Positions 1 through 36,563 of a DNA stretch of 52,227 nt are shown piece after piece. Every line of letters begins with the position of its first letter. Position 1 is the first letter of the stretch. The DNA lies in IMG/VR virus record IMGVR_UViG_3300036766_000708, positions 1 to 52,227 of that record; one strand, given 5' to 3'. Source of the DNA: a virus. The notes under the pieces are model-generated. The model searched no databases. It was not told the DNA's origin and saw nothing but the letters and a program-made list of their open reading frames with translations. A program made the position numbers and the translations under genes.

Positions 1-203
1 CGATCGGGTACCAGAAGGATCAAGCAGAAGCGGCGTATCTGTCGTGCGAGCAAACCGAGTCAGTGTCTCCACGGTCGTTCTGGGGTATCGCACAAGGGAC
101 CACACGCGCCAGCCAGGACGGGCAGTACCAGAACGATCGTTTTACGCTCGACTTGCTAGCAGCAAAGGTGCTCGCCCGCGGCGCGAAGCTGGTAGCAGCG
201 TAA
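1..203 (+). CDS. DUF932-type protein, C-terminal fragment
   Basis: Frame 3 reads 66 codons from base 3 to TAA at 201-203 with no start, so this is the 3' end of a gene. The peptide ends SFWGIAQGTTRASQDGQYQN..., a tail I associate with DUF932-type phage/plasmid proteins: a WG pair, then a Q-G-T-R stretch, then a helix. The N-terminal part of such a protein runs off the other end of the window (51320 onward), and the two parts together have about the family's usual length. Function unknown. The frame at the window end does not continue directly into this one; 2 (or 2+3n) bases would have to be missing. Confidence 0.7.
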   Translation, partial: IGYQKDQAEAAYLSCEQTESVSPRSFWGIAQGTTRASQDGQYQNDRFTLDLLAAKVLARGAKLVAA

Positions 204-475
204 TGGCCGCCATGCCTGCAAACCAGATTTCCCCAAGAAGGAGCAGAAGTAAATTGGGCCAATACGATACCTGGACTGGTCGAGAACTAGGCGAGCCGAC
301 ACAAGAACAGCTAACAGCCTTACGTGAATACGCATCAGAGCATGGTCGCAACTGGAAGTCAGCCCTGCTTGACGATTGGATGTATGCACGCGTGCCAGGG
401 CCACTACAGCAAGTGCGCAACAATTTTGGCCCGAAGTGGCTGATGCTGTTTGACATCAACAAGGGAGACGCGTGA
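203..475 (+). CDS. hypothetical protein, 90 aa
   Basis: ATG at 203 overlaps the TAA of the preceding DUF932 fragment (TAATG), which points to coupled translation and decides the start. The frame is open further upstream, but there the DUF932 frame is the coding one. The protein is soluble and basic at the N-terminus; a Trp-rich second half (NWKSALLDDWMYAR, FGPKWLMLF) suggests a small folded domain. I recognise no family. The stop overlaps the GTG of the next gene. Confidence 0.65.
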   Translation: MAAMPANQISPRRSRSKLGQYDTWTGRELGEPTQEQLTALREYASEHGRNWKSALLDDWMYARVPGPLQQVRNNFGPKWLMLFDINKGDA

Positions 476-882
476 GCAAGGAACTAGGGCGGAGTCGGCG
501 GCGCGACGGCTATCCCGCGTTACCTGTCCTGTCAGCCGGTACCCCTGAAGAATCGCTTCAGGGGTACGGCCTTCGTGTTCTCGGTTTCGTCGTCGCGTAC
601 GGTTGCACGGCAACGCTGTCACTCGACGATCTGAAGCTGGCGGACCACACGTACCCGATCGCGGTCGCGCGTGCGGATCTGGATATCCGAGTACTCAACA
701 CCCTCCACACCGCACGGCGATTGATCCTGTCGGCGATCGGCTGGCTCGAGCGTGAGGACGATGCCCCGGTGGTACCTATTCCCTCAGTACCCGACATCGA
801 TACTCCCGGCGGAGCGCACGATCGCTTGATTCCAAAACCTAAACCGCTGGCACCCACTGGCGCGGCGAATTTCGCATTCTGA
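472..882 (+). CDS. hypothetical protein, 136 aa
   Basis: GTG start overlaps the preceding TGA (GTGA). The middle is an alpha/beta-looking segment with hydrophobic stretches (LRVLGFVVAYGCTATLSLDDLKLAD, RRLILSAIGWLERE); the last ~40 residues are proline-rich and probably disordered. No recognisable family. The reading frame contains a perfect 12-bp inverted repeat at 539-567. Confidence 0.6.
   Translation: MSKELGRSRRRDGYPALPVLSAGTPEESLQGYGLRVLGFVVAYGCTATLSLDDLKLADHTYPIAVARADLDIRVLNTLHTARRLILSAIGWLEREDDAPVVPIPSVPDIDTPGGAHDRLIPKPKPLAPTGAANFAF
539..567. repeat. perfect 12-bp stem-loop inside a coding region
   Basis: GTACCCCTGAAG (539-550) and CTTCAGGGGTAC (556-567) are perfectly complementary around a 5-base AATCG loop. 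It lies inside the 472-882 gene and is not followed by a T run, so it is unlikely to be a simple terminator. Both outer ends are GTAC/GGTACC. Confidence 0.7.
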
Positions 883-892
883 GGTACCGACA

Positions 893-1306
893 ATGAGCGT
901 ATGTCCGACCTGTCATCAAACGATCAGAGCGGTCAAGCCACGCGTGACCGAAACGATCGATCCGTCGACCTTGTCCCCCGATCAACTGTTCGCGTACTAC
1001 AAACGCACCGCACCGATCGAAGACATCCGTTTTTGGTTGAATGTCGCGATGATGTCGGATTCACTTCGGAACCAAATGATCGCCCTGGAGTACGACGCCA
1101 CACGGATACCGCGTGCAGAATTTTACCGGCGGTTCGTCGCGCTACAGGCGACATGGCGACAGGAGTCAAACGCGCGCGAACGTCAGGCGCATATCGACGC
1201 GGGGGAGGTACTGACAGATGGACGCTGGGAAGTACCCACGGTCGACGAACCGGAACCGACAACGGGCGATCTCCTGGAAGGGGGTATCCATGCGGAAACG
1301 ACGTAG
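893..1306 (+). CDS. small protein with N-terminal CxxC, 137 aa
   Basis: Starts MSVCPTCHQTI, so a CPTC knuckle sits at residues 4-7; no second Cys pair follows, so any metal site would be incomplete or shared between subunits. The rest is helical and charged (LSPDQLFAYYKRTAPIEDIRFWLN, ERQAHIDAGEVLTDGRW). The gene lies 10 bases after the preceding one and overlaps the next by 17 bases. Function unknown. Confidence 0.6.
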   Translation: MSVCPTCHQTIRAVKPRVTETIDPSTLSPDQLFAYYKRTAPIEDIRFWLNVAMMSDSLRNQMIALEYDATRIPRAEFYRRFVALQATWRQESNARERQAHIDAGEVLTDGRWEVPTVDEPEPTTGDLLEGGIHAETT

Positions 1307-1463
1307 TTTCACGATCGCAAACCGCGGCATCGTCGAGTGGCACGAGCCCACGGCCGGCCCGTACCCGTACCACGTCACGATCCGGACCTTTGCCGGCGTG
1401 CAGTACCTCGGGGCAGTGGCGACGCTGCGTGAGGGTAAACGCGCCATTTTGGAGAACACGTAG
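1290..1463 (+). CDS. hypothetical basic protein, 57 aa
   Basis: The ATG at 1290 is preceded by a purine-rich ribosome site (GGAAGGGGG, about 5 bases away), which is why I start here and not at the in-frame ATG at 1218 deep inside the previous gene. The peptide (MRKRRSFTIANRGIVEWHE..., YPYHVTIRTFAGVQYLG) looks like one small beta-rich domain. Overlaps the end of the preceding gene. No family recognised. Confidence 0.55.
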   Translation: MRKRRSFTIANRGIVEWHEPTAGPYPYHVTIRTFAGVQYLGAVATLREGKRAILENT

Positions 1464-1465
1464 CC

Positions 1466-1714
1466 ATGAACGACCAGGACCTTGTGACCGACACGATCGC
1501 CATTCTGCGGGCGGACAAACCGGACGCGCTGAACCATATCCGAGCGCTGTACGCGGTCAAGCTGGTACCGCCGGTAGACCCGGTTGACACCTTCCACAAC
1601 CACCTAGATCGGTGCGATCGATGCCGGCGAATGCCGTTCGATCTATGTGCGACAGGTCGATCGTTATTGGCAGTAACCGGGCGTAATACAATCCAGGTGC
1701 GCGCCGATCGCTGA
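1466..1714 (+). CDS. small CxxC protein, 82 aa
   Basis: ATG two bases after the preceding stop. The protein has HLDRCDRCRRMPFDLC at about residues 46-61, a H-C-x2-C-x8-C cluster that could bind zinc. The first 35 residues form a helix with regular hydrophobics (DLVTDTIAILRADKPDALNHIRALYAV). It closes the rightward cluster; the long control region starts immediately after. Function unknown. Confidence 0.55.
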   Translation: MNDQDLVTDTIAILRADKPDALNHIRALYAVKLVPPVDPVDTFHNHLDRCDRCRRMPFDLCATGRSLLAVTGRNTIQVRADR

Positions 1715-1722
1715 TCAGTACC
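1711..1722. repeat. CTGATCAGTAC repeat, copy 1
   Basis: CTGATCAGTACC, spanning the stop of the 82-aa gene. Same core as the copies at 1770 and 1955. Confidence 0.6.
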
Positions 1723-1769
1723 GGACCTTCCACCCTCTCACCCGTCACTTACCGGGTACTGGTCGATCA

Positions 1770-1781
1770 CTGATCAGTACC
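1770..1781. repeat. CTGATCAGTAC repeat, copy 2
   Basis: CTGATCAGTACC, identical over 12 bases to copy 1 and 59 bases downstream of it. Confidence 0.6.
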
Positions 1782-1814
1782 CGATATCCTCCGCTCAGCT
1801 AGTCTCATAATCAC

Positions 1815-1910
1815 TCAACCTTCCTCCCTGTCCTTCCACGTCTCCGCTTCCCACTCGAACACGCGGTAACTGCCTCTGTTACAGTCACCTAGCGCGATCT
1901 CCCCGGTCAT
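1815..1910 (-). CDS. possible 31-aa peptide
   Basis: Minus-strand ATG at 1910 is preceded by GGAGGCGGGAAGTG, a good ribosome site, and reads MTGEIALGDCNRGSYRVFEW... to TGA at 1815. The Glu/Trp-rich peptide looks protein-like. It would lie downstream of the leftward zinc-finger pair. Support is only the ribosome site and composition. Confidence 0.35.
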   Translation of the reverse strand: MTGEIALGDCNRGSYRVFEWEAETWKDREEG

Positions 1911-1951
1911 CACTTCCCGCCTCCTGGCTCACTGAAACGCGGCTCAGGTGG

Positions 1952-1965
1952 GTACTGATCAGTAC
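1952..1965. repeat. CTGATCAGTAC repeat, copy 3, extended to a 14-bp palindrome
   Basis: GTACTGATCAGTAC is a perfect palindrome that contains the 11-base core shared with copies 1 and 2. Operator-like. Confidence 0.6.
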
Positions 1966-2153
1966 TCAGATACGACACAACAGACACAAGGCAACTATGT
2001 AAGTTCAATCGAATCAACACAATACGGCTACTGTAGCGGGTTCCACCCGAACCCAGACAGGGAGTGGGTAGGCTCCCCGCGGCCGGAGTGTGCAGTGGCA
2101 TGCACATGTCGTTGCCGATCGATTTTTTCTTCAGAAGGCAGCTCTACAGTGAC

Positions 2154-2183
2154 AACTGTACAGTTTCAAAAGGTTATAGTTTC
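2154..2183. repeat. 30-bp direct repeat, copy A (with palindrome 1)
   Basis: Begins with the 12-bp palindrome AACTGTACAGTT (2154-2165) followed by TCAAAAGGTTATAGTTTC. The whole 30 bases recur exactly at 2211-2240. Likely protein-binding sites in tandem. Confidence 0.8.
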
Positions 2184-2208
2184 AGGAGGGCGGGCAGGAT
2201 GACACACT

Positions 2209-2224
2209 GAAACTGTACAGTTTC
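2209..2224. repeat. 16-bp palindrome GAAACTGTACAGTTTC (2)
   Basis: Perfect 16-bp palindrome; second of five AACTGTACAGTT sites. Confidence 0.8.
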
Positions 2225-2240
2225 AAAAGGTTATAGTTTC
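2211..2240. repeat. 30-bp direct repeat, copy B
   Basis: Exact copy of 2154-2183, 57 bases downstream. Its palindrome is extended to 16 bp by flanking bases. Confidence 0.8.
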
Positions 2241-2252
2241 TAGGAAGGGTGA

Positions 2253-2264
2253 AACTGTACAGTT
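2253..2264. repeat. 12-bp palindrome AACTGTACAGTT (3)
   Basis: Third site, directly followed by CTCAGCGATCAGTACC (2265-2280), a 16-mer that recurs at 3233-3248. Confidence 0.75.
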
Positions 2265-2282
2265 CTCAGCGATCAGTACCAG

Positions 2283-2298
2283 GAAACTGTACAGTTTC
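2283..2298. repeat. 16-bp palindrome GAAACTGTACAGTTTC (4)
   Basis: Same perfect 16-bp palindrome as the one at 2209; 30 bases after site 3. Confidence 0.8.
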
Positions 2299-2363
2299 AC
2301 CACTTTCCCCATATGGATATCGGGAAATTCTCACTTGATAAAGTTAAATCCGTCCGTCCTTTG

Positions 2364-2445
2364 TTCTCTTGTACTTACCTACTGTTTCATACTGATAAAA
2401 GCCGGTTTCTCAGACAAACCGTATGGTCTGCTTAGTACAAGAGAA
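2364..2445. repeat. 12-bp inverted repeat around an AT-rich core
   Basis: TTCTCTTGTACT (2364-2375) pairs with AGTACAAGAGAA (2434-2445). The 58-base spacer contains two smaller, mutually exclusive stems: CGGTTT/AAACCG (2403-2408/2416-2421) and CAGAC/GTCTG (2411-2415/2426-2430). It sits in the most AT-rich part of the region. It could be an origin structure, a structured RNA or a large operator. Confidence 0.6.
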
Positions 2446-2547
2446 GGGGGAAAATCAGTATGGTAAGTGCGGAAGGACCCCGGATTCATTGAGGGAATTC
2501 GTGTGTACTGATTATCCAGAGCCGGGAAACCAGTATGGGGGGTCTAG

Positions 2548-2561
2548 AAACTGTACAGTTT
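2548..2561. repeat. 14-bp palindrome AAACTGTACAGTTT (5)
   Basis: Fifth site, about 250 bases from site 4 and overlapping the stop codon of the leftward zinc-finger gene. Confidence 0.75.
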
Positions 2562-2814
2562 AGGATTTGTGGAACCGGCAGCGACCGACCGGAGGTAGGG
2601 TCATCCCCTGGCGGCTCCTCGGGAAGTGTTTGTACAGGGCGGGAGCGCCGCACAGGTTGCAGGTGTCAGTGGCTGTTTCCCTGGCCTTGAGGTAGGCGTA
2701 CTGAGCGGGAGTGGTCCGACTGAACGCACCCGGCGAGGACAGCGCGAACCCGGACACCCGTATCGAGTCCGGATGTGACCCGCCCACATTGCCGGAGTAC
2801 CCCCGCCGGCTCAT
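2560..2814 (-). CDS. small zinc-finger-like protein, 84 aa
   Basis: ATG at 2814 overlaps the TGA of the upstream leftward gene (ATGA), so the two are coupled. The last 30 residues carry CNLCGAP...GRCRFH, a C-x2-C ... C-x2-H arrangement that could bind zinc; the first 50 are Ser/Gly-rich. The stop lies inside operator-like palindrome 5. With its neighbour it is the only leftward gene pair in this part of the map, facing the control region. Role unknown; a DNA- or RNA-binding regulator is plausible. Confidence 0.6.
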   Translation of the reverse strand: MSRRGYSGNVGGSHPDSIRVSGFALSSPGAFSRTTPAQYAYLKARETATDTCNLCGAPALYKHFPRSRQGMTLPPVGRCRFHKS

Positions 2815-3119
2815 GAGGGACCCCCGGTCCATTTCGCGACCAGACACTCAGGACACAGGGGTGAATGATCGGCGATCAGGTACCCGTGTCCACATCCCTC
2901 ACACGGCTTCAACCCGGCCCGCCGGAGGTTCCTGACCCGTTCTCGCGGTCCCTGGACCCTGGTGAACCCGTACCGCCAGCGGACCCCCCGCGCGGACAAC
3001 TCCAACCGTACCTGCCGGGGTGACACCCCCTGCTGCAAGCGATCATTCACGATGGCACTGAGCGTGCATGTCTGCATGGATGATGCACCGGCCTTGCAAG
3101 TGTCGTACCGACATGCCAT
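2811..3119 (-). CDS. small zinc-ribbon protein, 102 aa
   Basis: The C-terminal third has C-EGCGHGYLIADHSPLCPEC, two C-x2-C pairs about 14 residues apart, a treble-clef or ribbon spacing. Before it is a helical, Arg-rich stretch (IVNDRLQQGVSPRQVRLELSARG, then GFTRVQGPRERVRNLRRAG) that could contact nucleic acid. The start ATG at 3119 leaves a 30-base gap to the divergent gene at 3150, so any shared promoter would overlap the coding starts. Possibly a regulator acting at the nearby palindromes (inference only). Confidence 0.65.
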   Translation of the reverse strand: MACRYDTCKAGASSMQTCTLSAIVNDRLQQGVSPRQVRLELSARGVRWRYGFTRVQGPRERVRNLRRAGLKPCEGCGHGYLIADHSPLCPECLVAKWTGGPS

Positions 3120-3149
3120 GATGCACTCGGTTGAGGGAGGGTCCCCCGG

Positions 3150-3815
3150 ATGTCCACTGCTGAGCGTCTCTCGCTTCCCGCGCCTTCCTCGCGCGTTCTG
3201 TCGTCGGACGGGCCTTGTCGTCCTGATGACTCCTCAGCGATCAGTACCCTCGCGTCGACACCGGCCCTTCCCTCGACCACTGACACCCCCCGTATCCGGA
3301 AGCGGCATCTGAAGCCGCCGAAGGACACGAAGGTCTACAAAATCGCAATGGCCTACGTCGGCCTCAAGGCGCAGGGACTGAAGCTCCAGGAAATCAGCGA
3401 CACGATCGGCGTCCCGAAGGACACCATCACCACCTATGTGAAGCGGGCGAACAAGCACGGCTGGCTGAAGCGGGAATTGCTCGGCGTGGAAGACCAGATC
3501 GAACTGTCCCTCCCCGAACAGATTGTGGGCAATGTCGCGGCCGTGTTGAGTGAGCGCGACGGCACGACCCTGACCCTCACCCCGGCCGCGCGAGAAATGA
3601 CGATCGCCGCGGCGAAGGGGTTTGGGATTTTCAAGAACCACGAAGCCGTGAAGGTCGACGGGGTGATCGGCGTCGGGTTCGCGCTGAAGGTGCAAGTGGA
3701 ACTCCCACAAGGGATCAGTACCCTGTCGCCGATTCAGATCCGCCCCGGCAGTGTCGGAGGGACCCCCGCGATCGACGCTGAAATCATGGGCGACGGGGAA
3801 GGAGCGTCCTCGTAA
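3150..3815 (+). CDS. probable terminase small subunit, 221 aa
   Basis: After a low-complexity Ser/Thr/Pro N-terminus (about 45 residues) comes a helix-turn-helix (residues ~66-105: LKAQGLKLQEISDTIGVPKDTITTYVKRANKHGWL) followed by a helical segment and a beta-rich tail. HTH plus oligomerisation helices, placed first in the packaging block upstream of the large terminase, fits a small terminase that recognises the packaging site. A strong ribosome site (GAGGGAGGG) precedes ATG 3150. It contains an exact 16-mer shared with the control region (3233-3248). A different HTH regulator cannot be excluded. Confidence 0.6.
   Translation: MSTAERLSLPAPSSRVLSSDGPCRPDDSSAISTLASTPALPSTTDTPRIRKRHLKPPKDTKVYKIAMAYVGLKAQGLKLQEISDTIGVPKDTITTYVKRANKHGWLKRELLGVEDQIELSLPEQIVGNVAAVLSERDGTTLTLTPAAREMTIAAAKGFGIFKNHEAVKVDGVIGVGFALKVQVELPQGISTLSPIQIRPGSVGGTPAIDAEIMGDGEGASS
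3233..3248. repeat. CTCAGCGATCAGTACC, copy of control-region 16-mer
   Basis: Exact copy of 2265-2280, here inside the N-terminal low-complexity codons of the small-terminase candidate. Could be a terminase or regulator site. Confidence 0.6.
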
Positions 3816-4228
3816 TGGCCGGCTTTCTCTCGCCGCTCGAACTGGAGTACCTCGACGGGGTGACGTGGAAAATTACCGCGCCGTTTACGTACCACATCGG
3901 CGCGCCGGATGGCGTCGAATCGGTGCAGATTCCGATCGGCTTCGTGACGGATTTCGCGTCCGTGCCGAAAGTGCTCTGGAATCTCCTACCGCCCGTGGGG
4001 ACCTACGGGAAAGCGGCGGTCATTCATGACTGGCTCTATCAGGACCGCGTGATTGACGGGCCGTGTTTGCGTGTCTGTACCCGTGCGGAAGCAGACGCGA
4101 TTCTCTTTGAAGCGATGACGGTACTTGCGGTCGGTTTCCTGACTCGCTGGACGATCTACCTCGGTGTGCGGGTCGGCGGTTGGGTCCCCTGGTCCACGTA
4201 CCGTCGACACGAACACGAGTCCCGGTGA
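3815..4228 (+). CDS. DUF1353 family protein, 137 aa
   Basis: Contains the family signature: IGFVTDFASVPKVLWNLLPP (about residues 40-60) and then GKAAVIHDWLYQ, in the usual order. Full length for the family. DUF1353 proteins are common in phage structural or packaging regions and occur next to lysis genes; their biochemical role is not established. ATG overlaps the preceding TAA (TAATG). Confidence 0.85.
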   Translation: MAGFLSPLELEYLDGVTWKITAPFTYHIGAPDGVESVQIPIGFVTDFASVPKVLWNLLPPVGTYGKAAVIHDWLYQDRVIDGPCLRVCTRAEADAILFEAMTVLAVGFLTRWTIYLGVRVGGWVPWSTYRRHEHESR

Positions 4229-4234
4229 TGTCCC

Positions 4235-4585
4235 ATGCGCTCTCTCGCATCATTCGTCATGGGTACGATGCTTTCCACCGCATCTATGTCAACCGCACCC
4301 GTTACACCTTTGATTCGCGTGACCCCGCATGTGTTGAACGAGGGGGACACGATTCGGATTCGGTGTCAGGTCCCGCGGCATCCCGACAATCGCAAACTGC
4401 AAATCGCGATCGAGGGGTACCGCTATACGGAAGTGCCGATAGAAGGGGAGCGTGGCCCGGTGACGACGGAGATTACGTACCAACACGTTCCGTGTGGCGT
4501 CGATACCGTGAGTTGCGCCGTCGTAACGTCGATGGGGTACTCCCAACGCGTGACCGCCCCAATTCTGGTCGCATGTCGCGGGTAG
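4235..4585 (+). CDS. probable exported beta-sandwich protein, 116 aa
   Basis: Starts MRSLASFVMGTMLSTASMSTA, a short weak signal-like segment. The remainder looks like one Ig-like or beta-sandwich domain with alternating hydrophobics (TIRIRCQVPR, KLQIAIEGYRYTEVPI, GPVTTEITYQHVPCGVDTVSCAVV) and several Cys that could form disulphides outside the cytoplasm. No family recognised. The next gene starts inside its last 13 bases. Confidence 0.55.
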   Translation: MRSLASFVMGTMLSTASMSTAPVTPLIRVTPHVLNEGDTIRIRCQVPRHPDNRKLQIAIEGYRYTEVPIEGERGPVTTEITYQHVPCGVDTVSCAVVTSMGYSQRVTAPILVACRG

Positions 4586-4767
4586 ATGACGACCAGGATC
4601 GCCATGTGTCGTTCTACCCGACGAGATCCGGACGTGTCGGGCCGACGAAAGCGATCAGGGTCCTCGAAGTGCATGACGATCACGACGTCCGTCTCGGGTT
4701 CGTGGTGATTACGGACACGCTCCTCACGTCGAGTCTCTCCGTGTTTTCGGAAGCGGAGGCGTCGTGA
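4573..4767 (+). CDS. hypothetical protein, 64 aa
   Basis: ATG at 4573 overlaps the end of the exported protein, and the TGA overlaps the GTG of the next gene. The peptide (VSFYPTRSGRVGPTKAIRVLEVHDDHDVRLGFVVITDTLLTSS) alternates beta-type hydrophobics with charged turns, like a small all-beta domain. The frame is open far upstream, but the upstream part is antisense-like; the overlapping start is the economical choice. Confidence 0.6.
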   Translation: MSRVDDDQDRHVSFYPTRSGRVGPTKAIRVLEVHDDHDVRLGFVVITDTLLTSSLSVFSEAEAS

Positions 4768-5015
4768 TCATCTCGTTCGGCTTCAAGAATGGCCCGGTGC
4801 AGCGCGTGGACAAGACGTTCGACGTCCGGGATCTCACGCACGATATCGGCGATCGGGGATTCATCGAACGCGCGAATGAGATTCGCGATTATGCCGAGGC
4901 ACACCCGAACGAGCGTATTGCTATCGGCTGTACCGCTGGAAAGCACCGATCGCGGGCGCTCGCCAATCATGTTGCGACGGCGATCCGGACGTCCGTGCTG
5001 CACCGAGACAAGTAA
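4764..5015 (+). CDS. stand-alone RapZ C-terminal-like domain, 83 aa
   Basis: Begins MIISFGFKNG, reads FDVRDLTHD, then IAIGCTAGKHRSRALANHV (residues 52-70). This is the signature of the C-terminal domain of RapZ/YvcJ proteins (SFG-x-K-G, DVR-x-L, IGCTGG-x-HRS). In bacteria that domain binds small RNA or metabolite and is attached to a P-loop kinase domain; here the kinase half is absent. GTG start overlaps the preceding TGA. It sits directly before the large terminase, an odd place for a regulatory domain. Confidence 0.75.
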   Translation: MIISFGFKNGPVQRVDKTFDVRDLTHDIGDRGFIERANEIRDYAEAHPNERIAIGCTAGKHRSRALANHVATAIRTSVLHRDK

Positions 5016-6575
5016 ATGGCGAGCAAGAGACTTCCGCCTCACGTCGGCCTTGAGGTTGGCAAAACACTGCTCTATAACCCGTACCAACAGGAATTCCTCA
5101 AGGCCCGCCGGATGCGATTCGCGTCCTGCTGCAAGGTGATCGGGTACTGCGGGAGCGACGGGATTTTCCGGTGTCCGAAATGTGGGAAAGCGGACGCGGG
5201 CGCGGACAGAGTGTACCGTCGTCTCGGTTGTTTCGCGGGTCGTCGTGGCGGGAAATCCATCGTGGGGGCTCATGGCGCGCGGGAAGAGGTCCTGGTTCCC
5301 AATACCCTCGGGTGGATCTGTGGACCGTCGTACAAAATTCTCCACGACGCGACCATGCCGGCGTTTCTCAAACTGATCCCGCGTGAGTGGTGCGCGAGCT
5401 GGGATCAAGAACATTTGGAGTTGACCCTTGTCAACGGGGCGGTTGTCCAATTTAGGTCCCTGGACGATCCGGATCGTGGTCACGCCGGGGTGGGTTTACA
5501 TTGGGTGTGGATTGACGAAGCGGCGTTTGTGGCGGAACTGGCTTGGGACTATCTACGCCCGGCCCTTACCGACTTTGGCGGTGCTGCGTTCTTTACTTCC
5601 TCCGTAGACGGGTTTGATTGGACCTACGAACGTGTGGAAAAGCCGGCGCTGATCGACAAGAAACCGGGCTTCTGGGCGGCGAAGTGGCGGACGATCGATA
5701 ACCCGTTCATCGCGACGTACCGAGCGAATGAAGTCGAAGAGGCGCGGCTGACCATGCCGCCTCAGTTGTTCCGGCAGGAGTACGAAGGCGAGCGGGAGAA
5801 CTTCACCGGGTCCGTGTACGGCGAGTGGATCGACGATGCGTACCTCGCGGACGAAGACGCGGTCAGGACGTTCATTCCGGAGTGGCCGCGGGTGGACAGT
5901 CGACGCGTGATCATTCCGCTGGACTCCGGCGCGGACCATCCGTTCGGCGCGACCAAAATGGTGGTGACGGAGCAAGGGATCGTCGTCGTCGCGGATTATC
6001 TCGAACGTCAACGGGCGGTCAGCGCGCATTTGGTGTCGATTCGCTCCCAGTTCTCGCCCCCGTCCGACACACTTTGGTGCGCGAACCGGAACGAGGCACA
6101 ACTGCGGCTCGAATTTGCCGCGCATGGGATCTTGGTCGCGCCCGCGGAAAATGATCAGATGGCGGGGATCCAACGCGTCCTCTCCTGGCTGTACACGAAG
6201 CAGTTGAAGATCGCGTACCCGGCCCGGCGGACGTTCGACCAGATGAAGCAGTTGCGATTCTCCCCGAAGAACACCGGGAAGGACGGCGAGAAGAACGAGA
6301 AGGAAAAAGTCTTCAAGCTGAAAGACGAACTGCCTGACTGTGTGCGGTACGGGTTGATGACGTGGCCGTCGTTGCCGAAGATCCCCGACGCGATCCTGAT
6401 GCGAGACACGCGGGGGATGGACGAGAAGACGAAGTGGGAGCTGGAAAAGATCCGGACCTATGCCAGTCGCGATAACGAACGGGATCTCGAACCGGCGAAC
6501 GACGAATATCCGACCGGGAATTTCTACGGGGTGAGCGAGGACGCGATCGGGCATGACGGACACTTCTACGGGTAG
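5016..6575 (+). CDS. terL: terminase large subunit, 519 aa
   Basis: Packaging motor. ATPase: Walker A GRRGGKS (residues 75-81), Walker B WVWIDE (163-168), coupling motif TSSVDG (194-199). Nuclease half: PLDSGADHPF with Asp at 303, and LPDCVRYGLM near the C-terminus, as expected for the RNase H-like terminase nuclease. Length is normal. Unusual: a Cys cluster lies just before Walker A (C38, C39, C45, C53-x2-C56, C72), which looks like an inserted zinc ribbon between the adenine-binding region and the P-loop. ATG starts one base after the RapZ-like gene. Confidence 0.95.
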   Translation: MASKRLPPHVGLEVGKTLLYNPYQQEFLKARRMRFASCCKVIGYCGSDGIFRCPKCGKADAGADRVYRRLGCFAGRRGGKSIVGAHGAREEVLVPNTLGWICGPSYKILHDATMPAFLKLIPREWCASWDQEHLELTLVNGAVVQFRSLDDPDRGHAGVGLHWVWIDEAAFVAELAWDYLRPALTDFGGAAFFTSSVDGFDWTYERVEKPALIDKKPGFWAAKWRTIDNPFIATYRANEVEEARLTMPPQLFRQEYEGERENFTGSVYGEWIDDAYLADEDAVRTFIPEWPRVDSRRVIIPLDSGADHPFGATKMVVTEQGIVVVADYLERQRAVSAHLVSIRSQFSPPSDTLWCANRNEAQLRLEFAAHGILVAPAENDQMAGIQRVLSWLYTKQLKIAYPARRTFDQMKQLRFSPKNTGKDGEKNEKEKVFKLKDELPDCVRYGLMTWPSLPKIPDAILMRDTRGMDEKTKWELEKIRTYASRDNERDLEPANDEYPTGNFYGVSEDAIGHDGHFYG

Positions 6576-6586
6576 GGGAGGACGGT

Positions 6587-6997
6587 ATGTGGATTAGCCG
6601 GCAATTTTTCGACATGGTCCTGAGCGACAACAAGCGCCAACAGTTCGACATGCAGAAGTTGCAGGCCGAGTGTGCGGTGGGCGAGGCTCGTGTCGCGGCC
6701 CTACGTGAACAAAAAGCCAAGGACGACATCACGATCGATTGGATGCGTCATCGGGTGAACGCGCTTGAGAAAGAAAAGGCGGCATTGCTCGTGTCGAAGG
6801 GGATCAACATCTCCGTGCCTGAAATCGTGCCGACACGTCCGGGTACCGTGTCCTCGACTCCCCCTGGATTCGATCATCTCCCCTCATTTGAAGATGTGGG
6901 AGACGAACAGGCATCGAAATTTGGCGTCGCGCACGACGATCTTGGACATCTGATCCTCACGATGCCGGACGCATCCCACGGCGGTACTACGAATTAA
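6587..6997 (+). CDS. coiled-coil protein between terminase and portal, 136 aa
   Basis: Residues ~10-70 are a strong coiled coil (QQFDMQKLQAECAVGEARVA, then HRVNALEKEKAALLV); the rest is Pro/Gly-rich and acidic, probably flexible. A GGGGAGGACGG ribosome site precedes the ATG. Its place between large terminase and portal suggests a packaging or head-assembly accessory role, but no family is recognised. Confidence 0.65.
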   Translation: MWISRQFFDMVLSDNKRQQFDMQKLQAECAVGEARVAALREQKAKDDITIDWMRHRVNALEKEKAALLVSKGINISVPEIVPTRPGTVSSTPPGFDHLPSFEDVGDEQASKFGVAHDDLGHLILTMPDASHGGTTN

Positions 6998-7009
6998 CAG
7001 AAGGTCATC

Positions 7010-9406
7010 ATGGCATCCCCGTTCAAACCTCCGATCTCGCCTCCCGCCAGTCCCAACCCTGGAGCGACATCCGCTCCGGGCGGCACAGGGCCGACACTCC
7101 TGCAAGGCGCGAAGACGTTTACCGATCCGCAGCTGCTCGAAATGTTCACACGATGGAAGCGAGAGAGCTTCGATCAGCGGTGGATTTACGAGCGGCAGTG
7201 GATGCGGAACGTGTTTTACATCCTCAACCGCCAGTGGATCTACTTCGACTCGAAGCGCGGGCAGTGGCAAGATAAGCGGCTCGCCCGTTGGATTCCACGT
7301 CCGGTGACGAACATTCTCAAGGACGGACTCCAAACCGTCCGGGCGAACTTCGCCGCGATCAACTACGGCGCGACCGCTCGACCCGCCAACGCGGACAACA
7401 AGAACGTCGTCACGGCCTCGGTCGCAGATGACTACATGCCGATTCTCTACACCGACCACCAGATGGACGCGGTCTATAACGAGTTTGATTTCTGGATGCT
7501 CGCGTGCGGGAATGCCTGGATGCACACCGCGGTAAATCACGAGCGCAAAAACGGGATGCTGACGATCCGGTACGAGACGTGTTTGACCTGCAAAGGTGGA
7601 CCGTTTTCTGAAGTCGACATCAAAAACGCGGGTCAGAAATGTCCGCAGTGTGGCGCGAATACGTTGATGCCGGCCACGAACCCAGATGGCTCGCCGATGG
7701 AAGACAAGCGGCCGTTGCCGAAGGGCATCACGATCCCGTTGTCGCCGTTCGAGATTGCGTACCCGCTCGTGTACGAACGCTACGATCTTGCGCCCTACAC
7801 GATTCGGATGCGGTGGAGAGACAAGTCGTACTATGAACAGAACGGTGATCTGTCGCAGTACGTCAATCAAGTGCCCTGGTCGAAATCGCCCGCGGAACGG
7901 ACGATGCAGATTTTCAAGTCCCTCCCGTTCCAGAACGATCTCGGGGTGTCCGCTCCGTTCTTCGGCGGCGGCGGTACCAACACGGAAGCGGAGGGCGTGG
8001 TTGAGTACGACGTGTGGGTCAAACCCTGCGACGACTTCCCGGATGGACAGGTGATTCGGTTTGCCGGCGATCAAAATCCGATCGTCATTCATTCCGAGCA
8101 AGAATCACTGCCGGGACCACTCCCGTACCACTCGGGCGACGGCAATCCGATCTTCACCTTCCATCATGCGCGGTATGAGCATGTTGGCGGACGGTCCCTC
8201 GGCTCTGCGTTGATCGATCCCGGCGTGCAGAAGCAGGATCAACTCAATCAGCTCGATTCCCACATGCTGATGATCATCGGCCGCATGGCGAATCCGGTGT
8301 GGTTGGAACCAAAGGGCGCGGAGGTCGAGAAGTTCACGGGCGAGCCGGGGTTGGTCGTCAAGTGGAATCCACTGGTGGCCGGCGGCAACGCGAAACCGGA
8401 GCGCATCCCCGGTGAAGGGATCAACGCGTCGGTGTTTCAGTACCGCCAGATCATCAAGGACGAGGCACAAGACTTGATGGGCACGTACGACATTCTCAAG
8501 GGTCAGAAACCCGCGGGTGTCGAAGCGTATGCGGCGTTGAATCTGCTGCTCGAACGTGGACAGGCGAAACACGCAAGTGCGTTCAAGGAACGAGCCGCGG
8601 TCCATCGTGCCTGGGCGGGCGACGCGTTGTCGATTGAGCAAGAGTTCGGCGACGAGACGAAGATTCGGGCGCGCATGATGCCGAATCGGTCATGGGCGTT
8701 CGATGAGTTCAAGCGGGCGGACTTGAAAGGGTCGGTCGAGATCATCATCGAGGACGGCACGACCACACCGAAAACGAATTTGGGTGAACGTGCCTCGATC
8801 GATCACTTGAATTCTCTCGGGCTGATCGATCCCACCGACGAAGATCAGAAGCGGAAGATTTTCGAGAAGTTTGGCGAATCCGAACTGTTGCCGGAGATCG
8901 ACGCGCAAGTGCAGGAAGCGTGGATGAATATGGACGCGTTCGAGACGTTCTTGAAGGATCCCAACGCGATTGCGTCCGCGGCCGGCGCGGGGATCTCGCC
9001 CCTGCGGTACAAACGCTGGTATAACCCGGCGATCCACCGCAAGGAACTGATCAAGTGGGCGCTCAGTGACCGCGGGCGGGAAGTGTTCAAGGGGTCCCCG
9101 GCGGCGGAAGGGCTGGTGGACGCGTACCTGACGGAAATCGACGTCGCGCTCGGGCAAGCCCAAATGGGCATTATCGACGCGGCGGGTGTCATTATCGATA
9201 CAAAAGGCGGGCAACCCCCGCCTGGACAAGGGAATCCAGCTCTGCAGGGTGGTGGTACCGGTACCCCCGGCGGCGGAAAACCGGGTGCGCCCCCGAATCA
9301 ACAGGGAGCGGCCGGTCGAGGGTCCGCAATGGGCAACTCGAACGCGAATGCGGGTGGAGTAGCTGCCGCGAACCCGGCACAACCTCAAACAGTAGTGAAT
9401 CAGTGA
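7010..9406 (+). CDS. portal protein, 798 aa
   Basis: Dodecameric ring through which DNA enters and leaves. The call rests on size, position between terminase and scaffold/capsid, and portal-like text: RPVTNILKDGLQTVRANFAAI near residue 100, long helical wing, ALNLLLERGQAKHASAFKERAAVHRAWAG around residue 505, then a Gly/Pro-rich tail. P22-type podoviral portals have similar length. A CLTC...KCPQC pair at about residues 190-213 suggests a structural zinc site in the clip or wing. The stop codon is part of a 12-mer motif repeated elsewhere (9395-9406). Confidence 0.85.
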   Translation: MASPFKPPISPPASPNPGATSAPGGTGPTLLQGAKTFTDPQLLEMFTRWKRESFDQRWIYERQWMRNVFYILNRQWIYFDSKRGQWQDKRLARWIPRPVTNILKDGLQTVRANFAAINYGATARPANADNKNVVTASVADDYMPILYTDHQMDAVYNEFDFWMLACGNAWMHTAVNHERKNGMLTIRYETCLTCKGGPFSEVDIKNAGQKCPQCGANTLMPATNPDGSPMEDKRPLPKGITIPLSPFEIAYPLVYERYDLAPYTIRMRWRDKSYYEQNGDLSQYVNQVPWSKSPAERTMQIFKSLPFQNDLGVSAPFFGGGGTNTEAEGVVEYDVWVKPCDDFPDGQVIRFAGDQNPIVIHSEQESLPGPLPYHSGDGNPIFTFHHARYEHVGGRSLGSALIDPGVQKQDQLNQLDSHMLMIIGRMANPVWLEPKGAEVEKFTGEPGLVVKWNPLVAGGNAKPERIPGEGINASVFQYRQIIKDEAQDLMGTYDILKGQKPAGVEAYAALNLLLERGQAKHASAFKERAAVHRAWAGDALSIEQEFGDETKIRARMMPNRSWAFDEFKRADLKGSVEIIIEDGTTTPKTNLGERASIDHLNSLGLIDPTDEDQKRKIFEKFGESELLPEIDAQVQEAWMNMDAFETFLKDPNAIASAAGAGISPLRYKRWYNPAIHRKELIKWALSDRGREVFKGSPAAEGLVDAYLTEIDVALGQAQMGIIDAAGVIIDTKGGQPPPGQGNPALQGGGTGTPGGGKPGAPPNQQGAAGRGSAMGNSNANAGGVAAANPAQPQTVVNQ
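9395..9406. promoter_or_regulatory. GTGAATCAGTGA motif, copy 1
   Basis: Exact 12-mer also at 43580-43591 and, reversed, at 22499-22510. Here it encodes the last residues and stop of the portal gene and precedes a 126-base gap before the scaffold gene, which holds no gene I can see. Confidence 0.45.
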
Positions 9407-9532
9407 AAGAAAGTACTTGCAGGACGGCAATATCAGTGCCACACTGAGCGCCGGTAGACGTTCATGCAAGAAATCGGCCACATCATCAGCCAAACGACAC
9501 GCGGCCCTCACCCGCGATAACAAAGGAACGGT

Positions 9533-10441
9533 ATGGCTCTCGACGACACCACAGGAACAGGAACAGGAACATCAGGTACCTCGACGGCGAGTGGTACGAC
9601 CACACCAGCCGCCAGTACCGCAGCCTCCGGCGCGGCCGGCACTCCAAATCCATCGGGCGATCCAGGTACTGCGCGAACCGGCGCGGCTGCATCCGGGTTT
9701 ACATACCAGGAAGACCGATCGAAGTGGATCCCGCCACACCGATTGACCGAAGTTTCTCAGAAGCAGCAAACCGCGGAACAGCGCGCGACGACACTCAGCA
9801 CCGAACTCGAACAGGCGAAACAGCGCATTGCGGCGCTTGCGGGTGTGAATCCTCAAGATCCGCAAGCGATGAAATCGCAACAGGTCAAGGACGCCTTCGA
9901 GGCCATGTTCCCGCATCTGAAGCCGTTGCTCTCCATGACGGCGGAACAGATCGAAGCCCTGACGAAGACCCCCGAAGCGACACAGCGTCAGTCGCAGGCG
10001 GAATTGCGTCAGTGGCAACGACATGGCAATCAGCAGATGACGGCCGTCTACACCGACGTCGCCGAGTCGATGGGCATCGACAAGCTGGATGATGATCAGA
10101 AAGCCGATCTGAAAGACAGCTTCACGTCCTGGCTGAAGAACAAAGCCAACGCGGAATTACAAGCCAGCGGTGGTCAGGATTCCGCGACGATCACCCGGTA
10201 CGAGGAAGGTGACGCGGCCCTATTGAAAGAGTTCGTGACGTCGTATACGAAACGCTGGGTGGAGCCCGCACGCCGGACCGCGACCGCCAATACATTCCCT
10301 CGAACACGAGCGGTACCGAGTTCAACCGGCCGCACGCAAGTGACGACCGTCGAACGACCGGCCGTGTTTAAGACACTCGACGAACGAATGGACTATGCCG
10401 CGAAGCTCGCACGAGAACGCGGCGTCCAGTTCGGCTCGTAA
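9533..10441 (+). CDS. probable scaffolding protein, 302 aa
   Basis: Position directly between portal and capsid, acidic/helical composition and a disordered Gly/Ser/Thr-rich N-terminus (TGTGTSGTSTASGTT) are typical of internal scaffold. Residues ~65-105 form a coiled coil (LTEVSQKQQTAEQRATTLST, then EQAKQRIAALAG). The C-terminus is basic with a helix (ERMDYAAKLARERG), as expected for a coat-binding end. No protease domain seen. Confidence 0.75.
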   Translation: MALDDTTGTGTGTSGTSTASGTTTPAASTAASGAAGTPNPSGDPGTARTGAAASGFTYQEDRSKWIPPHRLTEVSQKQQTAEQRATTLSTELEQAKQRIAALAGVNPQDPQAMKSQQVKDAFEAMFPHLKPLLSMTAEQIEALTKTPEATQRQSQAELRQWQRHGNQQMTAVYTDVAESMGIDKLDDDQKADLKDSFTSWLKNKANAELQASGGQDSATITRYEEGDAALLKEFVTSYTKRWVEPARRTATANTFPRTRAVPSSTGRTQVTTVERPAVFKTLDERMDYAAKLARERGVQFGS

Positions 10442-10459
10442 CAAAAGGATAGGACGATC

Positions 10460-11839
10460 ATGCGCGCATTTCTTCTTCACGATCTGATGACCCACGCCGG
10501 TACCGAGGCCGGCCTGCTGTTCGTCGGCGCGGACAGTACGGCGGTGTTCGGGCTCTACAAGGATGTCTTCGAGGAAGGCATCGCGGAGGGTGTGAACAAC
10601 AGTAATCCGCTCGGCGACATCTTCAAGCCGGTCAAGGTGGATTACAAGGGCGGCAAGGGCCACACTTTCGAGGCACACGTCGGACGCAACCCGTCGCCCA
10701 TGTTCGTCGCCGAGGATGGGGCATTTGCCGGCGCGGGCGCTCAGCGGCACATCAACGGGACGGTACATGTCCGCAAGATGATGGCGCGGCTCCGTCTCAC
10801 ACAGGAAGCGATGGATGACAGCGTGTCGTCCGAAGCGTCGTGGAAGTCCGCGAAGAAAGACGAGATGACGCGGATCATCGACGACATCGCCAAGCGGGAA
10901 GAGTTCGCGCTCTCCACGGACGGCAAGGGCGTGTTCTGTCTCCTGTCGGGCGATCCGGGTACCTCGTCCACCACGATTGAAGTGGACAGTCCGGGCAACA
11001 TCGCAGGTACCTCCTTCGGCAACCGATTCTTGCAAAAGGGCATGTATCTGGCCGCGATCAATCCGGCGGATGGTTCTGTCCGTGCGGGTATCTCGAAGGT
11101 CGTCGACATCAACGAAGACGGGACCGACTACACGGCGGCAGCGGTGACAGACACGGCGTGGGCGGACAACGATTACCTCGTGCAAGCGGCGAACGCGTCA
11201 GTCACGGACATCCTCGATACCGCCTACGAAAAGGCGTATTACGGTCTGCCCGCGCTGGTCGACGACGGCACGAACAAGGCCAACTACTTCGAGATCCAGC
11301 GGTCGCTGGCTCCGTCGTACAAGTCGTATGTGGTCAGCTCGGCCGGCGCGCTCGCGACTGATGCCATGCAGCGGACGGCGGACGTGCTGTACCAGAAACT
11401 CGGCGGCGAGGTTACGCGTCTCTTGATGCACCCCTCGGTGCGACGCGAGTTCCTGAAGTTGACGGAAGCCGATCGGCGCTATGCCCCGGCGTCCAGCGAC
11501 AAGAAACAGAGTGACCCTGGTACCGTCGCGTTCAAGAAACCCGGCGGCGACGTGTCGATGGGTGAGGTACCCGTCACCCCGATTCGGACCCTCGGACTCG
11601 ATCAGGTGTACTTCCTCGACGAGACGCGGATGGGCGCGAAGCAGTACGTCGCGGAGCCGGGACGATTTGTCGACGAAGACGGATCGATTCTCGTCCGCGA
11701 CGGCGTCGGTGATTCCGCCCGTCACGCGTTCGAAGCGTGGTGGTTCGCGCGGAAGCAGAACTTCGTGGGCAATCCCGCGGTCTGTGCCAGATGGGATGGG
11801 GTCACTGGACAAACTTTGGTGATTGTTCCAGAGCTTTAG
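10460..11839 (+). CDS. major capsid protein, 459 aa
   Basis: Shell subunit, probably HK97 fold. Evidence: place after scaffold, high-expression look, and capsid-like text: DIFKPVKVDYKGGKGHTFEAH (E-loop area, residues ~52-75), REEFALSTDGKGVFCLLSGDPG (~150), LGLDQVYFLDETRMGAKQYV near residue 390, and the closing domain WWFARKQNFVGNPAVCARWDGVTG. No N-terminal protease-processed region is evident. A strong stem-loop follows the stop at 11875. Confidence 0.88.
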   Translation: MRAFLLHDLMTHAGTEAGLLFVGADSTAVFGLYKDVFEEGIAEGVNNSNPLGDIFKPVKVDYKGGKGHTFEAHVGRNPSPMFVAEDGAFAGAGAQRHINGTVHVRKMMARLRLTQEAMDDSVSSEASWKSAKKDEMTRIIDDIAKREEFALSTDGKGVFCLLSGDPGTSSTTIEVDSPGNIAGTSFGNRFLQKGMYLAAINPADGSVRAGISKVVDINEDGTDYTAAAVTDTAWADNDYLVQAANASVTDILDTAYEKAYYGLPALVDDGTNKANYFEIQRSLAPSYKSYVVSSAGALATDAMQRTADVLYQKLGGEVTRLLMHPSVRREFLKLTEADRRYAPASSDKKQSDPGTVAFKKPGGDVSMGEVPVTPIRTLGLDQVYFLDETRMGAKQYVAEPGRFVDEDGSILVRDGVGDSARHAFEAWWFARKQNFVGNPAVCARWDGVTGQTLVIVPEL

Positions 11840-11874
11840 TTCTTGATTCTGCGTTCAGCGTAATCGTCGTTATG

Positions 11875-11908
11875 GCCCGTAGCGTTCATACATCTGAACG
11901 CTACGGGC
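11875..11908 (+). terminator. 14-bp stem-loop after the capsid gene
   Basis: GCCCGTAGCGTTCA (11875-11888), loop TACATC, TGAACGCTACGGGC (11895-11908): a perfect 14-bp stem in the gap between capsid and the next head gene. There is no T run on the + strand, so it may be a processing or stability element rather than a classical intrinsic terminator. Confidence 0.6.
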
Positions 11909-11941
11909 TGTGCGATCGGGGGAACTAGAGGAGGTTCAAAC

Positions 11942-12382
11942 ATGGGTGTATTGGGGCATTTCAAAGAATCGGCGGTCGTTCACAATCGCACCCTCGGCGC
12001 GGGTGCGTTTGAGCGCATTCTCAGTGTCCGCTACGACGGCGAAGACATCAATCTCGTACCGGGACCGAACGTGCTCCCGAAGGTCGCGATTCCGTACGCG
12101 ATCAAGCAAAACCCGCTGATGGGGTCGAAGCATCCCGTGGACCCGCGGAAGTTCATTTCGCTGGTGGGCGTGGAAGGGTCGAAGAATTACCCGATCACCC
12201 CCATTCCCGAGTCGGTCCTGGCGAAAGCGGCGCAGGCGCTTGAAGTCGTCGATCGTGATGGATCGTTCTACGGGGAGCCGATGGAAGCTCGGAAGCTGTT
12301 GAAGCGGACGCCGTACAGCGCGTACGAAGCGTCGGTGGAAGCGGGGTCGGGCACCGAATTCGACACGAGTCACAACGTCTAA
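11942..12382 (+). CDS. probable head structural protein, 146 aa
   Basis: Excellent ribosome site (AGAGGAGG, 8 bases before ATG). All-beta-looking protein (HNRTLGAGAFERILSVRYDGEDINLVPG...) right after the capsid; could be a decoration or minor head protein. No family recognised. The C-terminus (EAGSGTEFDTSHNV) is flexible. Confidence 0.6.
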   Translation: MGVLGHFKESAVVHNRTLGAGAFERILSVRYDGEDINLVPGPNVLPKVAIPYAIKQNPLMGSKHPVDPRKFISLVGVEGSKNYPITPIPESVLAKAAQALEVVDRDGSFYGEPMEARKLLKRTPYSAYEASVEAGSGTEFDTSHNV

Positions 12383-17100: not shown

Positions 17101-18747
17101 ATGCCGTCAGGAACCCTTCGTGTCACCCAGTTCGGTCAGGGCGGCGTCAACGTCGATGCCAACCCGCTGGACATGGCGGATAACGAACTGCGATCGTCAC
17201 AGAACGCCGAGCATACCGGCTTGAGCGGGCGCAAGGGCGGGCTCAGTACTCGACAGGGACTGGCGCAGTTCAATACCTCGAGGCTGAGCGGCGCGGTCCT
17301 TGGCGGGATCGAGATGCCCGTTGCAGGTACCGGCGGGGCTCCGGCCGCGGGCGGAGGCGGAAACAATACCGGCTCGCCCATTCCCGGCATTACCGGCGAC
17401 AACCTCGGCGCGGGGTTGACGATCGATAGCAGCACAAACGTCGGAGCCGCGACGCCGCCCAGTGAACCACTCGGCCAATCTGGGGTGCTGTTTGGCGGGT
17501 CCCGGTTGCTGCTCATTGGACGCCACGACGACGATCTCAATGTGTTGAGTAAGCAGACCGGGTACGGGTGGTACCTCACGTCGAAGGAATGCCAGGACGA
17601 CGCGCTCAAGATTACCTCCGGATCGGGCGGGTGTGTCGTGGGTCCGTTTGGCTTTCCCGTCGATTCGACGCCGCGGTACTCCCCCGCGTCGGACACCGCC
17701 GATTCGGTCAACCACGGGCAGCAGGGATACGCCGAAGCGAACGGGGTCCTCTACTACGGGGCGGCGTTTGATACGGCTTTCGATGTCAACCCCACGAAGG
17801 CGACCCTGCGACGCTACGACGGGCACACGGACTCGCTGGTGTGTACCTTCCCCCACAACAACTACCTCGTGACAGCGGTCGCGTCGTTCAAAACCAGCGT
17901 GTCCTGCGTGCTCGTGAAGTACGCGGACGGGAATGTCTGCTACGTGGCGGTGTTGGACAAAGAATTCGGGATCCCCGCCTACTTCCACGGGCGCATTTTC
18001 AAAGTCACCGGGCTCGACGCGGGTAATTATGCCCTGACGGAGATTTTCAATTCCCTCAACCCGGCGAACGGCGCACCATTCGTCAGCTCCCACACCACCG
18101 GGTTTGCGCCGTACGTGCTGGAAAACTTTGGCGGGAATCTGTGGTTCGGGATGTGGCGCGGGCATCAGATTCTTGATTCGGATCTCGACCCCTACATCGT
18201 GCAACTGCAAGGGAGCGGCTTCGTCATCGCCAATAACGTCTCCGCGGATCACAGTTCGACCAAACTGTCTGACGTGTCCTGTATGCGGCCGTTTCAAGGG
18301 TCGTTGTTTTTCGGGTATCGCGTGCATTCCAACGATACCGGCGGGTACACCCCGCAATTTGCCAAGATCATGAAACTCGACCCGGACGGCACCCTGACGG
18401 AGTCGTTGAACACAGACGATGGGGGTACCGCGGCGGATACCAATGCGGCGGCCGCGATGCGGCTATTCGGCGGGAATTTGTACGCGACGCTATTCAATCC
18501 GAGTTCGCCGTCGACCGCGTCGGTCAAGAAATTCGACGGGGCGTCGTGGACGACGGTGTTGAATTTTGCTTCATTGGGTGTCCCGCTCAACCTCGGTGTC
18601 GATGATGGGGTGTTGTACACCTGGGGCGAGGACATCTTGTACTCGTCGTTGGACGGGATCACCTGGACGAATCGCTCCGCACACCTGAACGCGAACATGG
18701 ATTCTCACGATCACCCCATGAGCGCCCTCTACGGGGTGGACCAGTAA
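17101..18747 (+). CDS. tail beta-propeller protein, 548 aa
   Basis: N-terminus (GTLRVTQFGQGGVNVDANPLDMADNELRSSQNAEH) matches the start of podoviral tail-stabilisation proteins that wrap the tail hub. It is followed by Gly-rich linkers and many WYL/GNLW-type blades (YGWYLTS, GGNLWFGMWRG, LFGGNLYATLF, GVLYTWGEDILYSS). Probably a tail hub or stabilisation component. Its stop overlaps the next gene's ATG, and the pair probably act together. Confidence 0.7.
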   Translation: MPSGTLRVTQFGQGGVNVDANPLDMADNELRSSQNAEHTGLSGRKGGLSTRQGLAQFNTSRLSGAVLGGIEMPVAGTGGAPAAGGGGNNTGSPIPGITGDNLGAGLTIDSSTNVGAATPPSEPLGQSGVLFGGSRLLLIGRHDDDLNVLSKQTGYGWYLTSKECQDDALKITSGSGGCVVGPFGFPVDSTPRYSPASDTADSVNHGQQGYAEANGVLYYGAAFDTAFDVNPTKATLRRYDGHTDSLVCTFPHNNYLVTAVASFKTSVSCVLVKYADGNVCYVAVLDKEFGIPAYFHGRIFKVTGLDAGNYALTEIFNSLNPANGAPFVSSHTTGFAPYVLENFGGNLWFGMWRGHQILDSDLDPYIVQLQGSGFVIANNVSADHSSTKLSDVSCMRPFQGSLFFGYRVHSNDTGGYTPQFAKIMKLDPDGTLTESLNTDDGGTAADTNAAAAMRLFGGNLYATLFNPSSPSTASVKKFDGASWTTVLNFASLGVPLNLGVDDGVLYTWGEDILYSSLDGITWTNRSAHLNANMDSHDHPMSALYGVDQ

Positions 18748-36230: not shown

Positions 36231-36563
36231 TTAGGACCGGACGTACGGATTCGGCGGCAACGCTCGCGATCGTCCAGTCGCGGTCACAGTTGTGAGTCGC
36301 CAACCGGGAGGCATCAGCGATTGTAGAAACACGTTGACTTCGTCGAAATAGACGCGCCGGACAGACCGGTCAAAGCCATCCATATGCTGAGATTCAGTGA
36401 GGGTGAACACGCGCCCGGAGAAGTGTTCGTCCTTGAACTGATCGAGAAATGCGCGCTTCATGGCGTGGTTGGGCGTCACCAGACGCGCATCCAGATCGCG
36501 TTTCAGTTCTTGCGCCAACCAGTACGACTTCCCGCCGCGCCGGGGTGCTGTGATGAACTCCAT
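36231..36563 (-). CDS. minimal P-loop protein, 110 aa
   Basis: ATG at 36563 overlaps the TAA of the nuclease gene. Walker A is APRRGGKS (residues 6-13: MEFITAPRRGGKSYWLAQEL) and a Walker B-like strand is RRVYFDEVNVF (~78-88). Only 110 residues, much shorter than a full RecA or AAA core; it may be a truncated ATPase or a compact clamp-like helper. Sits between the ERCC4 nuclease and the polymerase, ten bases before the latter. Confidence 0.65.
   Translation of the reverse strand: MEFITAPRRGGKSYWLAQELKRDLDARLVTPNHAMKRAFLDQFKDEHFSGRVFTLTESQHMDGFDRSVRRVYFDEVNVFLQSLMPPGWRLTTVTATGRSRALPPNPYVRS

Follow-up and report, generated by a model that had tools for sequence, protein, structure and literature searches.

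The phage contig and its genes

The window, i.e. the whole stretch of DNA analysed here, is an entire phage contig of 52,227 bases. Podovirus-like head genes (TerL, portal and capsid) and a tyrosine integrase are encoded on it. The features needed below are the following:

1711 to 3722, no strand: clustered GATCAGTACC motifs containing both GATC and RGTACY, mostly non-coding, upstream of the terminase genes
2152 to 2563, no strand: five copies of the palindrome GAAACTGTACAGTTTC or of sequences near it, centred on GTAC, non-coding
33456 to 36221, minus strand: DNA polymerase I fused to an N-terminal type-4 uracil-DNA glycosylase domain in one protein
36563 to 37318, minus strand: ERCC4/Hef-like nuclease with helix-hairpin-helix
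38726 to 39451, minus strand: Dam-type DNA N6-adenine methyltransferase (PF05869) with NPPY motif and extended C-terminal part
43920 to 46364, minus strand: DinG-like helicase

The Dam-type protein reached 86.7 bits with Pfam PF05869 (cut-off 28.1; profile positions 7-107 of 169) and matched PHROG 111. With the NCBIfam equivalog TIGR01712 75.1 bits were obtained, which is below the cut-off of 97.05. Its NPPY motif aligns with NPPY or NPPF of other family members, and its C-terminal part is common only to the window and the relatives G002 and G003. The predicted structure of this protein was too poor to be used (pLDDT 42). No other methyltransferase was recognised among the called ORFs of the window. 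One ORF matched PF18909 (dATP/dGTP diphosphohydrolase N-terminal domain); besides this match, no nucleotide-hypermodification genes were recognised among the window ORFs.

The polymerase-glycosylase fusion could be aligned over its full length with the proteins of G002 and G003 and over nearly the full length with that of G1465. The ERCC4/Hef-like nuclease is unusual in a phage replication cassette. The DinG-like helicase is interrupted at about residues 507-771 by an insert some 265 residues long. This insert is probably an intein, as it is missing in the orthologues of G001 and G002 and gave a weak match to an intein N-terminus.

Several searches for relatives and for the host were performed. 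In an annotated phage collection no match was detected to positions 1-12000 (megablast) or to the protein of 17101-18747 (tblastn). A narrow pattern scan of 84,980 species revealed no proviral TerL relative as a host clue. Among about 1,440 genomes of five phyla no close proviral relative was found at the thresholds used; the only TerL match was a distant one from Gemmatimonadota with 111 bits. Neither tRNA nor Rfam clues to the host were found within the window. A 16-base operator-like palindrome was rejected as host marker, its 15 viral and 64 genomic single matches corresponding to chance, and the matched loci were taken as a near-random background sample. Aquitalea was also rejected as a GTAC-rich host type: the ratio decreased from 3.1 (8 kb) to 2.06 (72 kb) and to 1.08 with the codon shuffle.

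Excess of GTAC and GATC in the window

The original prediction placed an excess of GTAC and GATC in the first 1800 bases, with about 20 GTAC and more than 20 GATC estimated by hand. The counts of 22 and 27 agree with this estimate, and base composition predicts 6.5 for each. The excess is real in this region, but it is a property of the genome and not a local one. The whole contig contains 370 GTAC and 546 GATC. Relative to the rest of the genome, the first 1800 bases show just a mild surplus (GTAC 22 versus 12.4, Poisson p 0.009; GATC 27 versus 18.5, p 0.04), and the richest stretch of 1800 bases lies elsewhere for both tetramers. A local feature of positions 1-1800 was ruled out since the excess spans the genome.

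Two null models were applied. In 100 dinucleotide-preserving shuffles 125.6 ± 10.8 GTAC and 366.7 ± 18.3 GATC were obtained, and none of the 100 reached the observed count of either tetramer. This null overstates the case for GTAC, because bacteria generally lie above its expectation (median already 1.5 in about 120 bacterial loci). The second null was a synonymous-codon shuffle, proposed as a check together with the original prediction, which preserves proteins and codon usage and was applied to 45 CDS from our own gene calls. The excess survived here as well, with 388 GATC observed versus 249.5 expected (z 13.3) and 252 GTAC versus 151.2 (z 10.8). GATC and GTAC thereby rank first and second of the 256 tetramers, and both are raised in all three frames. 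Furthermore, AGTACC and GGTACT occur almost equally on the coding strand (30 and 27). From the excess in all frames and the equality of both strands it follows that the excess acts at the level of DNA and not of codons.

An origin of the excess in dinucleotide or codon composition is extremely improbable. An order-2 Markov model does predict 334 GTAC, near the observed 370, but its expectation is calculated from GTA and TAC counts, which are themselves fed by the GTAC sites; as these counts contain the signal, this null was set aside as a test. Neither of the two shuffles attained the observed GTAC, and a GTAC excess is missing from the sampled bacteria. A bias arising purely from dinucleotide composition, named with the original prediction as a possible refutation, thus does not apply to either tetramer, and a codon or dinucleotide artefact was ruled out by both shuffles.

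The excess of GTAC varies with the flanking bases, with 3.8-fold for AGTACC/GGTACT, 3.1-fold for GGTACC, 1.0-fold for CGTACG and 0.6-fold for TGTACA. Hence, the truly enriched unit is RGTACY, about 3.2-fold over the codon shuffle. It is present at 152 sites of the whole contig, 57 of them GGTACC (8 expected; 1.1 per kb). The enriched octamers are diverse and none is dominant; even the most frequent do not exceed 15-20 copies in CDS.

The premise of a usual avoidance of 4-bp palindromes by phages is in general not borne out by this genome, in which most of them are near expectation and 6-bp palindromes are purged. Observed and expected numbers in CDS were 0/23 for CCCGGG, 0/12 for GGGCCC, 1/24 for GGCGCC, 0/12 for GATATC, 0/8 for CCATGG, 0/10 for GCATGC and 0/6 for AGATCT. 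With AGATCT as an exception, GTAC- and GATC-centred 6-bp palindromes are mostly spared. This broad loss in the window indicates strong restriction pressure. Extreme purging was also observed in the relative G012 (L155, L156), where 6-bp palindromes overall amount to 0.21 of expectation.

The turnover of sites was counted only where amino acids are conserved between the window and a relative. Compared with G002, 59 GTAC were kept (41.8 expected) and 34 were gained (19.0 expected); no other tetramers are as strongly over-retained as GTAC and GATC, which are also among the most over-gained. Compared with G003, only GTAC is still over-retained and over-gained. As gain and retention both exceed expectation, the sites are maintained as a statistical property and not at fixed places.

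This turnover bears on the idea of a functional motif, according to which the sites would bind a regulator or a packaging or replication factor. The GATCAGTACC cluster before the terminase genes is partly conserved in L003, with several motifs at aligned positions, and possibly represents a packaging or regulatory site. In the same non-coding stretch the GTAC-centred palindrome GAAACTGTACAGTTTC is repeated five times, its copies alternating with AAAGGTTATAGTTTC repeats (2152-2563), and appears operator-like. However, this array is replaced by other sequence in L003 and thus not kept. Moreover, only some 15 of the 370 sites are concerned; the remainder is distributed over the genome, mostly in coding regions and in all frames. 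A fixed functional motif, one of the readings first offered, is unsupported for most sites since GTAC sites turn over, and as a general explanation it is very improbable.

For comparison, 22 bacterial genomes of five phyla were examined with the codon-shuffled null and the same gene picking as for the window; this limited sample may not include the host. Ratios of 0.50-1.09 for GTAC, 0.36-1.29 for RGTACY and 0.63-1.56 for GATC were obtained, versus 1.75, 3.21 and 1.56 for the window. GATC is therefore at the top of the ordinary bacterial range at similar G+C, and GTAC is outside the range.

A host signature had also been suggested, i.e. adaptation to an unsampled host overusing GTAC (as RGTACY) and GATC. 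It is possible for GATC, whose ratio equals the upper values among bacteria, e.g. in some Acidobacteriota, Planctomycetota and Gemmatimonadota. For GTAC the dinucleotide expectation is exceeded in most bacteria, as given above, and most phyla are outside the sample. Nevertheless, the highest ratios among the 22 bacteria are 1.09 (GTAC) and 1.29 (RGTACY). The flank preference also varies among relatives, with 57 GGTACC in the window, 45 in G001 and 64 in G002, but 8 in G003. Furthermore, the sister phage G1465, whose capsid is 80% identical, is almost without GTAC or GATC. In general, this explanation is regarded as somewhat unlikely.

Relatives and their methylase genes

Relatives were gathered as metagenome contigs or loci by terminase and capsid searches. 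GTAC shows the widest spread of all 256 tetramers among 86 family contigs or loci (sd 1.02, the next 0.46), and its spread in bacteria is 0.50. It exceeds twice the expectation in 33 of 78 loci and is below 0.1 times in 8, counts that are partly non-independent because of near-duplicate contigs (L231/L233, L286/L287 and the shared part of G001/G002). Thus, the tetramer is either enriched or absent in many members. Only 0-6 GTAC per contig were counted in G1465, G1466, G1467, G1468, G1469, G1491 and G007. No GATC at all occurs in G1465, G1466 and G1467, and hardly any in G1469. In some members the loss of sites is near-complete, as known for restriction-site avoidance: G1465 has 2 GTAC in 50.5 kb and a GATC ratio (observed/expected) of 0.00. 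L231 and L233, the GTAC-free phages closest to the window, have capsids 80% identical to that of the window. On the capsid tree about four changes to the GTAC-free and about six to the GTAC-rich state are needed.

The two tetramers are not always coupled, as L006 and L007 are GTAC-rich yet GATC-poor. A distant second lineage, G1498, contains 81 GGTACC versus 6 expected and carries two methylases. The GTAC-rich and GTAC-free groups differ in further genes, e.g. the DinG-like helicase.

GATC was compared with the presence of a Dam-family gene. In 48 contigs, the 11 Dam-positive ones had GATC ratios of at least 0.88 and the 37 Dam-negative ones ranged down to 0 (p 0.016); with phylogenetically independent pairs on the tree, a low-powered test, the link was not significant. 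All strict GATC avoiders tested are without a Dam-family gene. In G1465, PolA, ERCC4 and AAA_24 are present, with ERCC4 and AAA_24 adjacent and no Dam gene between them.

The GTAC state of the family members cannot be predicted from the presence of Dam (p 0.28). In G1491 a Dam-family gene and a GATC ratio of 1.32 go along with no more than 2 GTAC; protection of GTAC is therefore not a general property of Dam-family genes. On these two grounds it was ruled out across the family that the excess of GTAC is due to a Dam-family gene alone. When any methylase was considered, one or two were found in all seven clearly GTAC-rich near-complete members (codon-shuffle ratio at least 1.38), including two phrog_3816 enzymes in G1488 and G1498, versus one of five GTAC-free members (Fisher p 0.010); these groups were drawn post hoc and the p values ignore kinship. 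Inclusion of the moderately GTAC-rich G1506 (1.34), for which no methylase was found, changes the value to p 0.032. As the search was made with PF05869, PF01555 and homologues of the methylases already detected, further types may have escaped it. Methylation protection, likewise among the first suggestions, therefore fits GATC, with no Dam-positive avoider, and is plausible for GTAC, for which Dam alone is not predictive.

Proposed restriction and protection, and known palindrome systems

Avoidance of recognition sites is a well-known sequence scar of restriction. As a tentative explanation (probability about 0.45), GTAC and GATC are restriction targets in this phage group, which some phages purge and against which others are protected by methylation. 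The hosts would restrict at GTAC and GATC, and some members would have lost GTAC, sometimes GATC too, almost completely. In the lineage of the window the DNA probably carries methyl groups, placed on GATC by the Dam-type enzyme of the phage itself and on GTAC either by this enzyme or by one of the host. Methylated sites would be free to be present in the window. From the distribution of sites and genes we infer that restriction caused the absences and that methylation underlies the tolerance; the same holds for the choice of the enzyme acting on GTAC.

Protection alone does not account for the 1.5-3 fold overshoot of GTAC, mainly as RGTACY. It predicts a return to expectation, so a further bias is needed. 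Host composition may provide this bias, or the methylated site may itself be subject to a linked repair or selection process.

By analogy with the HIP1 palindrome, a methylase together with methylation-dependent repair could make and keep RGTACY, perhaps also GATC. The overshoot with raised gain and raised retention would agree with such a coupling, as would the enrichment of a hexamer unit (GGTACC) instead of the bare tetramer. The GGTACC excess and the two methylases of the distant G1498 point in the same direction, and HIP provides a precedent linked to methylases (PMC4390886). On the other hand, a C-to-T repair signature at GTAC was not seen when single-substitution neighbours were compared: ATAC, CTAC and TTAC are similarly low, and no single neighbour is specially depleted. 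Furthermore, no gene resembling Vsr or MutH was recognised. This coupling is decidedly unlikely as the explanation. In a broader form, the lineage would actively accumulate methylatable RGTACY as a phage counterpart of HIP, methylase-linked repair or selection lifting it above expectation in protected lineages, and unprotected sisters would purge the same site. This form is fairly unlikely; if true, a single phage family would comprise members lacking a given tetranucleotide and members with an excess of it, with switches between the two states.

With restriction and protection as the preferred reading, the same site purged or in excess among close relatives represents a natural experiment on the way in which protection by methylation alters selection on restriction sites. 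GTAC density could flag self-protecting methylase phages in metagenomes. If the excess is tied to a methylase, the reasons for the accumulation of methylated palindromes such as HIP1 could be studied in a short, testable system. In the literature searched, the coverage of which was incomplete, no report of GTAC over-representation in phages was found.

That phages avoid Type II restriction sites, up to their near-complete elimination, was described by Rusinov et al. (2018, PMC6286503). The near-complete elimination in the GTAC-free and GATC-free relatives and the lack of many 6-bp palindromes in the window are comparable. In contrast, GTAC of the window is in excess over dinucleotide and codon nulls. 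In that study overabundant GCNGC was judged apparently unrelated to restriction. GTAC is a known target of PabI-family restriction glycosylases and other GTAC-specific systems (HpyAXII; PMC10273834), and it is rare in Helicobacter and Campylobacter (PMC10273834), which the GTAC-free phages resemble in this respect. The enzyme of the window corresponds to phage Dam methyltransferases (PF05869) in domain, NPPY motif and location in the replication cassette. It differs from the others in the extended C-terminal part, present only in G002 and G003 as well, and in its score below the TIGR01712 cut-off.

HIP1 and its alternates are highly iterated palindromes of cyanobacteria linked to methylases (Elhai 2015, PMC4390886). 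As with HIP, a palindrome of the window is over-represented far above expectation throughout the genome (GGTACC 57 versus 8, about 1 per kb; RGTACY 3.2-fold) and co-occurs with methylase genes. Unlike HIP, the unit has 4-6 bp with no dominant octamer, the lineage is that of a phage, and close relatives purge the same site.
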